Positions 19,664 through 22,016 of a stretch of 64,000 nt of DNA are shown here, in pieces. The first letter of the stretch is position 1; each line of letters begins with the position of its first letter. The notes under the pieces were generated by a model. The model was not told where the DNA came from and did not search any database. It worked only from the letters and a program-made list of their open reading frames with translations. Position numbers and translations under genes: made by a program. Source of the DNA: Chryseobacterium echinoideorum (GTDB lineage: Bacteria; Bacteroidota; Bacteroidia; Flavobacteriales; Weeksellaceae); the NCBI RefSeq assembly GCF_007474535.1, contig NZ_VKNW01000003.1, positions 310,001 through 374,000 on the forward strand, written 5' to 3'.

Positions 19664-19942
19664 ATGTCAGTAAACTTTAAACCATTAGCAGACAGAGTTT
19701 TGGTAGAACCAATCGCTGCAGAAACAAAGACAGCTTCAGGTATTATTATTCCGGACACTGCAAAAGAAAAACCTCAGGAAGGTACCGTAGTAGCAGTAGG
19801 TCCTGGTAAAAAAGATGAGCCTACAACTGTAAAAGTGGGTGATAAAGTTCTTTACGGGAAATATTCAGGTTCTGAATTGAAATTGGAAGGAAAGGATTAT
19901 TTAATTGTAAAAGAAGGAGATCTTTTAGGAATAATTGGATAA
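19664..19942 (+). CDS. groES: Co-chaperonin GroES
   Basis: The heptameric 10-kDa lid of the GroEL chamber. 92 residues with the family start [20 protein letters not shown], the mobile loop around [18 protein letters not shown], and the C-terminal [27 protein letters not shown]. Length and motifs are normal. It should be cotranscribed with groEL but is separated from it by 448 bp containing an inserted four-helix-bundle gene. No consensus housekeeping promoter was found upstream, which may reflect heat-shock control. Confidence 0.97.
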
Positions 19943-19949
19943 AAGCAGT

Positions 19950-20376
19950 AAGCTTTAGGCAGTAAGCAGTAAGCAATGAGAGACTACAAAAAATATGATA
20001 CTTGGAAAATTGCCCATGAGCTGGTAAAAGAAATTTATATTATTTCTGAAAAATTTCCTAAATCTGAACTTTTTGGTTTAACATCTCAAATTAGAAGAGC
20101 ATCAGTCTCTATTCCAACAAATATTGCCGAAGGTTGCGGAAGGTCTACCGATAAAGAATTTGCAAGATTTTTAGAAATAAGTATTGGTTCAACAAATGAA
20201 ACAGAATATTTGCTTCTTCTTTCTTGCGAGCTAGGCTTCACAACCGAAGAAAACTTACAAAGCCTTAATCCTAAACTGAATTTAATCAGACAGAAACTTA
20301 TACAACTTAGAAAAAATTATTAAATAATAATTAACAGCTTAAAGGTGAAAAGCTTACTGCTTATCGCCTAAAGCTT
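19950..20376. mobile_element. Four-helix-bundle (S23) gene bounded by 25-bp inverted repeats
   Basis: The left arm 19950-19974 (AAGCTTTAGGC...CAGTAAGC) and the right arm 20352-20376 (GCTTACTG...GCCTAAAGCTT) are inverted copies matching at 23 of 25 positions. They enclose a single gene, whose ATG begins one base after the left arm. The left arm itself contains the direct repeat GCAGTAAGC. The unit interrupts the groES-groEL operon. This is the layout of a small transposable cassette without a known transposase. No target-site duplication is obvious. Mobility is inference. Confidence 0.55.
19976..20323 (+). CDS. Four-helix bundle protein (S23 / 23S rRNA IVP family)
   Basis: 115 residues, all helical. 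Family signatures: YKKYDTWKIAHELVKEIY, FGLTSQIRRASVSIPTNIAEGCGR and EFARFLEISIGSTNETEYLL. The family is named after ORFs in intervening sequences of 23S rRNA; relatives also occur as orphans and as Avd proteins of diversity-generating retroelements, where they form a basic pentameric barrel binding nucleic acid. No reverse transcriptase or rRNA is near. The gene sits within inverted repeats between groES and groEL and is co-oriented with them, so it is probably transcribed with the operon. Confidence 0.9.
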   Translation: MRDYKKYDTWKIAHELVKEIYIISEKFPKSELFGLTSQIRRASVSIPTNIAEGCGRSTDKEFARFLEISIGSTNETEYLLLLSCELGFTTEENLQSLNPKLNLIRQKLIQLRKNY

Positions 20377-20378
20377 AA

Positions 20379-22016
<1,638 letters not shown>

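Follow-up and report, generated by a model that had tools for sequence, protein, structure and literature searches.

An S23 gene framed by inverted heptad arrays between groES and groEL in Chryseobacterium, with cassette turnover at this junction

Introduction

The 23S rRNA intervening sequence (IVS) of Coxiella burnetii, in the parts of its description on which we draw, is 428 nt long, carries an S23 ORF and is closed by a terminal stem of 28 bp (PMC4990558). Usually three copies of the heptamer GACAGAT, two in some strains, together with one GACAGAA lie right before the S23 ATG, and the first heptamer is the site of RNase III cleavage (PMC4990558). The authors treated the heptamers as strain variation and the S23 protein as probably not made; the origin and role of rRNA IVSs were still called unclear in 2016, more than 25 years after their discovery (PMC4990558).

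Heptameric repeats have been described separately, as GGGAATC in Xanthomonas, where two genomes hold 70 and 75 convergent inverted pairs, as GGGGA(C/T)T in Nostoc (PMC4692102) and as TAACTGA (PMC4679880). In the portions of these two papers considered here, such repeats are linked to G-quadruplexes or translation control, and the term S23 does not occur in the main text of either (PMC4692102, PMC4679880).

S23 genes are very common yet have no known function: matches were present in 58 of 59 sampled genomes of the genus Chryseobacterium and in 116 of 148 sampled genomes of the phylum. Here we analyse an S23 gene in a 64-kb stretch of the Chryseobacterium echinoideorum genome (the window). The original prediction, made from the sequence of the window, was that this gene and the inverted repeats around it split groES from groEL, that the unit may move as a small cassette with a trans-acting enzyme and could affect the groEL leader, and that such flanked S23 orphans could be a neglected type of mobile element.

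Results

The S23 unit and its arms

The unit and its host genes comprise the following features, in window coordinates.

19664-19942, forward strand: groES, the upstream host gene (ORF; 270 nt of its 3' end were used for the flank tree).
19939-19974, forward strand: left arm, AAGCAGT-AAGCTTT-AGGCAGT-AAGCAGT-AAGCA, overlapping the groES stop codon (sequence, inverted-repeat match, lag-7 periodicity).
19976-20323, forward strand: gene for an S23/four-helix-bundle protein of 115 aa (ORF, PF05635, TIGR02436, AlphaFold model, dN/dS).
20352-20387, reverse strand: right arm, inverted heptads GCTTACT-GCTTATC-GCCTAAA-GCTTAAA-GCTTTAA (sequence, RNA fold).
20391-22016, forward strand: groEL, the downstream host gene (ORF).

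The arms had been predicted as 25-nt repeats (19950-19974 and 20352-20376) pairing at 23 positions, with the S23 ATG one base past the left arm and the groEL ATG 14 bp from position 20376, and all of this is borne out by the sequence and the ORFs. They are in fact part of an ungapped pair of 36 nt with 31 complementary positions (86%), which runs into the groES stop codon on the left and stops 3 bp short of the groEL ATG on the right. Each arm is made up of five 7-bp units in direct repetition, with the core [AG]GC; the fifth heptad of the left arm, AAGCAAT, overlaps the S23 ATG. The arm pair is not due to chance. With a score of 47, it was the sole ungapped inverted repeat scoring at least 30 (arms of at least 18 nt, spaced by at most 700 bp) in the window, and one first-order shuffle of the window gave none. 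The 427-bp unit itself is present in one full copy in its own genome, where the other DNA-level matches are partial, and it thus lacks the multiple copies with common terminal repeats in one genome that characterise insertion sequences and MITEs.

The S23 protein

The predicted family assignment was confirmed by profile matches of the encoded protein (P0001) to PF05635 (125.6 bits vs a cut-off of 33.8) and TIGR02436 (120.6 vs 24). Its AlphaFold model (pLDDT 97.8) has four helices and resembles the structures 2gsc (XCC0516; TM 0.91-0.95) and 2rld (TM 0.73-0.84). Both of these contain five chains, and they are pentamers, like Avd. To Avd in 4dwl and in DGR ribonucleoproteins the model has a TM of about 0.8 at a sequence identity of 6-8% (7% to 4dwl). 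No Avd-model match was among the P0001 matches at E<=0.001, and two paralogues, L007 (30 bits) and L011 (21.5 bits), match that model weakly, under its cut-off of 80. The genome encodes nine PF05635 matches in total, of which two have an internal stop and one is partial.

The predicted trans-acting enzyme found no support from the two profiles that were searched. The RVT_1 reverse transcriptase profile has no match in this genome, as against 3 of 14 control genomes that do match, so an Avd-like partnership with a reverse transcriptase is not supported there. The Y1_Tnp profile has one match (L449, contig C12; 38.6 bits), a transposase-like gene distant from the unit and without a known link to it.

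Heptad arms at other S23 genes of Bacteroidota

By eye, most of the other S23 genes in the same genome are framed by short-period arrays whose theme differs from locus to locus; TTAGAnn, GTTyAAn and TTTGAAA are among the themes, and one array has a 4-bp unit. At a truncated S23 gene (L014, contig C7) the upstream side is a 4-bp TTAG array with no heptads.

For each S23 gene, the sequence upstream was scored against the reverse-complemented downstream side of its own locus and of all other loci. Over 91 loci from the genus, order and phylum the median was 27 for own and 16 for swapped sides, with 60 loci above the 95th percentile; over 79 of the 80 named genome-scan loci (L306 was left out) it was 28 vs 16, with 51 above. 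From the 160 usable loci of these two sets, we then retained 47 independent ones by removing loci with a common flanking gene family or 70% identical S23. Their own arms score 27.3 on average, compared with a permuted mean of 15.8 (sd 0.59) that did not reach this value in any of 2000 permutations. Taken singly, 31 lie above the 95th and 20 above the 99th swap percentile, and 16 lie at or below the 95th.

Taken together, the arms of these 47 loci have a 7-nt period. Identity at a lag of seven is 0.44 upstream and 0.43 downstream of S23, compared with 0.28-0.33 at control lags of 4 to 15 except 14 and with 0.255 in a far-upstream control (79-locus set). Of the dinucleotides listed for 167 non-independent loci, none recurs at lag 7 on the left side as often as AG (378 vs 106 expected), and the preference is strand-specific, CT recurring 54 times vs 13 expected. 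The longest ORFs on both flanks are co-directional with S23 in 37 of the 47 independent loci. These data show that S23 genes across Bacteroidota tend to lie in inverted 7-bp arrays with a theme private to the locus, and they support the suggestion that flanked S23 orphans are a neglected type, in that they form a real, widespread and poorly recognised class.

The arm theme does not strictly mirror the sequence specificity of its S23 protein: where two S23 proteins from different sites are 50-70% identical, their arms are in most cases unrelated. Only S23 pairs at least 70% identical (21 pairs) have raised arm similarity (median best score 28 vs 16-20), part of which may come from missed orthology. 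The longest run of similar units has its mode at five in both arms (43 loci on the left and 39 on the right, of 167; windows of 70 nt and 90 nt, respectively) and at two in 88 control stretches. Since runs of three on the left (42 loci) and of four and three on the right (34 and 33 loci) are almost as frequent, the match between a pentamer and five heptads is a lead only.

Plasmids, other phyla and phages

Plasmid-borne S23 matches are mostly cyanobacterial (30 records). From these records, 16 loci were chosen by hand (15 cyanobacterial and one from Riemerella), some of which, such as L444 and L445, are the same site in related species. Nine of the 16, including 8 of the 15 cyanobacterial loci, exceed 27.4, which marks the 99th percentile in the 47-locus swap control. 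At L442 the unit ACAGGGA is repeated in near-perfect arms, and at L436 near-perfect repeated TAGGGAG flanks an S23 gene between two ribonucleotide reductase genes. The remaining seven fall below this cut, among them L433, where the heptads are direct rather than inverted. S23 runs opposite to the annotated genes on both sides at three of the 16 loci (L434, L435 and L436), so sense orientation is a tendency and not a rule; L436 is the best-armed plasmid locus, yet its S23 gene is antisense to both neighbours. Three of the cyanobacterial plasmids (L433, L447, L440) carry their S23 genes within CRISPR gene clusters; in two of them the neighbours are cas6 and cas4, in the other cas10 and a cmr3-family gene.

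Heptad arms were also present at genome-scan loci from metagenome bins that bear names of other phyla, for example Anaerolineae (L305), Gastranaerophilales (L274) and Chlorobiota (L249). In the same scan, a locus named as Chryseobacterium (L272) shares its arms with a genus locus (L031). A single query of 50,697 phage records for S23 gave no match.

Cassette and spacer types at groES-groEL

Of 118 genus genomes searched, 117 had a match at groES-groEL, and 90 spacers were analysed (30 automatic, 60 hand-chosen). At least 17 of the 27 matched genomes outside this set have full-length S23-like matches, and the 90 spacers therefore include fewer S23-bearing sites than their true share. An S23-sized cassette is present in 39, of which 18 are of type A, like that of the window, and 21 of type B, whose proteins begin MRDFKK... 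and comprise at least two S23 subtypes. Four of the 18 type-A and three of the 21 type-B cassettes, kept within their classes, have a non-intact S23 gene; in the other 14 and 18 the gene is intact. With a median dN/dS of 0.098 in type A and 0.081 in type B, compared with about 0.033 for the groES end, S23 evolves under purifying selection (dN/dS about 0.1).

The other 51 spacers have no S23-sized insert, and 48 of them are shorter than 130 bp. Identity at lag 7 in the short spacers is 0.485, vs 0.27-0.34 at other lags except 14, and their two halves match in inverted orientation at or above the 95th percentile of plain letter shuffles in 34 of the 48; 14 fail singly, ten of which have the theme AGAnnnn. 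By regular expression, the 51 divide into 25 with GTAnnnn, 20 with AGAnnnn, three with a leftover theme-B right arm and three that are decayed or odd. As to the empty sites sought by the original prediction, the insertion is absent from some relatives, but most sites without S23 carry other heptad arrays, and no clean empty site, against which a target-site duplication would be read, was recognised among the 90 spacers.

Three spacers of 244-270 bp (L149 of genome G105, L144 and L145) hold other sequence beside a leftover theme-B-like right arm; L149 has a short open frame that is not S23-like by eye. In L391 (genome G345) an apparent 5'-truncated S23 remnant lies between heptad arms and seems by eye to be decaying.

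Heptad arrays without S23 at other sites

At the guaA-purD junction, themes A and C occur in different species and S23 is found in none of the 27 sites parsed (59 genomes searched, 30 loci fetched; classes by regular expressions). One theme per genome was considered for the 19 genomes typed at both guaA-purD and groES-groEL, which are too few for this purpose: 10 agree (5 A/A, 5 C/C) and 9 differ, with phylogeny still in these counts. One guaA-purD array (L342, genome G023), labelled C by the script, is a hybrid with a theme-B left arm and a theme-C right arm, perhaps a step in theme change.

Arrays lacking S23 are also found away from these junctions. The 2-Mb genome G345 has six near-identical, scattered theme-A arrays (L385-L390), some followed by a common GGTGCGTGG-like stretch. 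In genome G057, heptad arrays adjoin tRNA-Ile and tRNA-Ala at seven near-identical sites (L378-L384), with theme A between the two tRNA genes and a TTAGA array before tRNA-Ile; one of the seven (L378) lies between 16S and 23S rRNA, and the tRNAs were confirmed at three. Contig C26 of the window's own genome carries REP-like palindromes without a 7-bp period at about 134509-134581, 137549-137618 and 281860-282010 (CTTCGACAAGCTCAG..., TTGTCATTCTGAACGAAG...), and the Y1 transposase-like gene may go with these.

Such arrays bear on a reading in which the heptads are the mobile or slippage-prone part, growing through slippage and being copied between sites, and S23 is a passenger or a captured ordinary regulator with no role in movement. 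It is favoured by the ORF-less arrays with matched halves at groES-groEL and by those at guaA-purD, between 16S and 23S rRNA in G057 and at the six G345 sites. Array number likewise does not track S23 number. In a survey of 320 kb of the own genome and 100 kb of each of seven relatives (one first-order shuffle per sequence), array density per 100 kb is 9 in genome G238 (14 S23 matches), 0 in G191 (13) and G145 (9), and 2 in G046, which is free of S23; S23 number as a driver of array density is not supported across the genomes sampled. Against a passenger role stand the very strong association of S23 with two matched arms in the 47 loci, the purifying selection on S23 and the IVS of Coxiella, which, in the portion of its description used here, pairs S23 with heptamers likewise (PMC4990558). 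We regard a passenger role for S23 as possible but rather doubtful.

Inheritance and turnover of the cassettes

The spacers were grouped into six classes by length (A below 460 bp, B above 460 bp) and regular expressions, theme D holding at least two sub-themes and three spacers being classed as other. When mapped onto a tree built from the coding DNA on either side, these classes require 45 changes compared with a shuffled mean of 52.3, a value as low being seen in 1 of 200 shuffles, and hence cluster weakly. Flank distances correlate with those of an independent marker (3,326 columns around guaA-purD, 22 genomes; r=0.67), by which genomes of equal cassette type are no closer (0.146 vs 0.148). 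Among 27 independent close pairs with flanks at most 5% apart, 13 share their cassette type, where type frequencies predict 6.0, and 14 differ. Cassettes are therefore heritable, yet divergence of a few per cent is enough for turnover. (L178 was left out of this comparison and of the flank-pair and flank-association comparisons below.) Turnover at groES-groEL within the genus is the part of the proposed mobility that stands, whereas the lack of a second copy in the own genome does not fit a small mobile cassette.

Cassette and flank divergence are correlated in type A (r=0.80) and less so in B (0.22), C (0.16) and D (0.10), and other genera of the family also have relatives of P0001 at this junction. 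Both observations indicate that the type-A unit is old at this site; it is inherited vertically and has been repeatedly lost or replaced. The junction offers a site for strain-level study of cassette exchange.

Turnover could also reflect spacer alleles swapped between species by ordinary homologous recombination via groES and groEL, given flanks that are about 90% identical. The pair L154 and L157, with near-identical groES (0.4%) but other groEL neighbours, looks as after a crossover, and groES differences at 12-30 bp from the spacer are slightly commoner in pairs with differing than in those with agreeing types (0.107 vs 0.077, raw frequencies). The association of type with flank is, however, confined to about 12 bp upstream, in groES (z -8.6, -5.6, then -0.3), and about 30 bp downstream, in groEL (z -2.0, -3.4); further into groEL, only a weak signal recurs at 120-200 bp (z -2.4). 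Differing pairs have no SNP excess at 30-270 bp in groES, the groEL figures are small and close, and no clear trace of exchange was found in the flanking genes of differing close pairs. Ordinary recombination therefore appears to us a less than probable, if conceivable, source of the turnover.

Arm pairing and the stem

The window unit folds as RNA with a z of -4.85, and an inverted heptad array or its remnant is present in most of the 90 spacers. Both fit a conserved RNA hairpin or attenuator whose function would be to set groEL relative to groES, with S23 in its loop by chance. Over the 18 type-A sites, however, none of 30 arm pairs (13 of them invariant) has a compensatory change, and arm pairing is 81.3% compared with 83.2% in shuffled columns. 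A covarying RNA stem is thus not supported by the type-A arm pairs, and the lack of covariation speaks against a hairpin that is simply conserved. All 18 sites keep the GC of heptads 2 to 5 in both arms, whereas the positions between these cores vary, mostly without a compensating change; this pattern is more in keeping with units that are bound than with a hairpin under selection to pair. Arrays that differ in theme show no sequence relationship, 14 of the 48 short spacers lack matched halves above shuffles, and like arrays frame S23 genes beside unrelated genes. We consider the hairpin explanation unlikely. It had been raised, along with presence of the same insertion in all relatives, as a result that would count against a mobile unit; in the 90 spacers the insertion is missing from some relatives and the arms do not behave as a plain hairpin.

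A classical transposon cassette, whose terminal inverted repeats would be read by a trans-acting transposase such as the product of the one Y1-like gene, agrees with the repeats and with presence or absence at one site, and Y1 enzymes can read hairpins, but it is very improbable given that arms differ among elements of one genome (such private themes arguing against a transposase that reads arm sequence), that the unit has no second copy there, that type A is vertically inherited at groES-groEL, and that the REP-like palindromes of the genome would probably suit a Y1 enzyme better.

Discussion

We propose that the unit is a heptad-armed, IVS-like S23 element in an mRNA operon, and that S23 docks on the arrays and aids cassette turnover, a proposal to which we give about even chances. 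Its anatomy in a protein-coding operon and the turnover of cassettes at this junction are established here; the roles of S23 and RNase III are inferred. In a groES-S23-groEL transcript the arms would pair into an imperfect stem, which RNase III could cut, thereby separating the messages and releasing the S23 mRNA. The S23 protein, likely a pentamer with the Avd fold, may dock on the heptad arrays, recognising their 7-nt spacing and an AG core and no single sequence, and could promote the loss, retention or exchange of cassettes where a site is already occupied. Hosts might tolerate the cassettes because they sit between genes.

More tentatively, and with rather less conviction, we suggest that S23 and the inverted heptad arrays could be one autonomous system, in which the pentamer acts by spacing rather than sequence, maintains the match between the arms through changes of theme and swaps cassettes between genes of an operon, with borders sharp to about 10-30 bp; rRNA IVSs would then be only its best-known location. 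The common cis-anatomy of inverted 7-nt arrays with a private theme, mostly in sense and between genes, gives S23 a candidate substrate.

Comparison with known systems

The protein has the same fold as Avd (PDB 4dwl, 8ub7). It differs from Avd of DGRs in its sequence, which is 7% identical to 4dwl and has no Avd-model match at E<=0.001, and in that its genome has no RVT_1 match. The arms are similar to REP/BIME and MITE sequences in being short intergenic palindromes or inverted repeats with ORF-less, non-autonomous forms, but differ in that their sequence is private to the locus, the common elements being the 7-nt spacing and often the AG core. With the repeats of Xanthomonas and Nostoc and with TAACTGA, as far as the sections used here describe them, they share a 7-bp unit and an intergenic location (PMC4692102, PMC4679880).

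A close likeness is to the Coxiella IVS, on the basis of the part of its description cited above (PMC4990558). The two are of nearly equal size (427 bp vs 428 nt), and both have a sense S23 ORF inside terminal inverted repeats and AG-containing direct heptamers immediately 5' of the S23 ATG. Unlike the IVSs of 23S rRNA, which occupy helix 9, 25 or 45, our unit lies outside any 23S rRNA gene, in a protein-coding operon between groES and groEL, and most type-A and type-B copies retain an intact S23 gene, which is under purifying selection; S23 of Coxiella, by contrast, is in its authors' view probably not made (PMC4990558). Because the Coxiella IVS has the same parts in the same order, we read the groES-groEL unit as an IVS-like element outside rRNA.

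Heptameric repeats, rRNA IVSs and the family of S23 proteins have all been described separately. Searches of the open-licence PubMed Central literature gave no account of S23 genes with inverted heptad arrays on both sides other than in rRNA. Apparently new are thus the matched arms, private to each locus, of S23 genes that lie between protein genes, and the cassette turnover at groES-groEL. These arms link the literature on IVSs with that on heptameric repeats.
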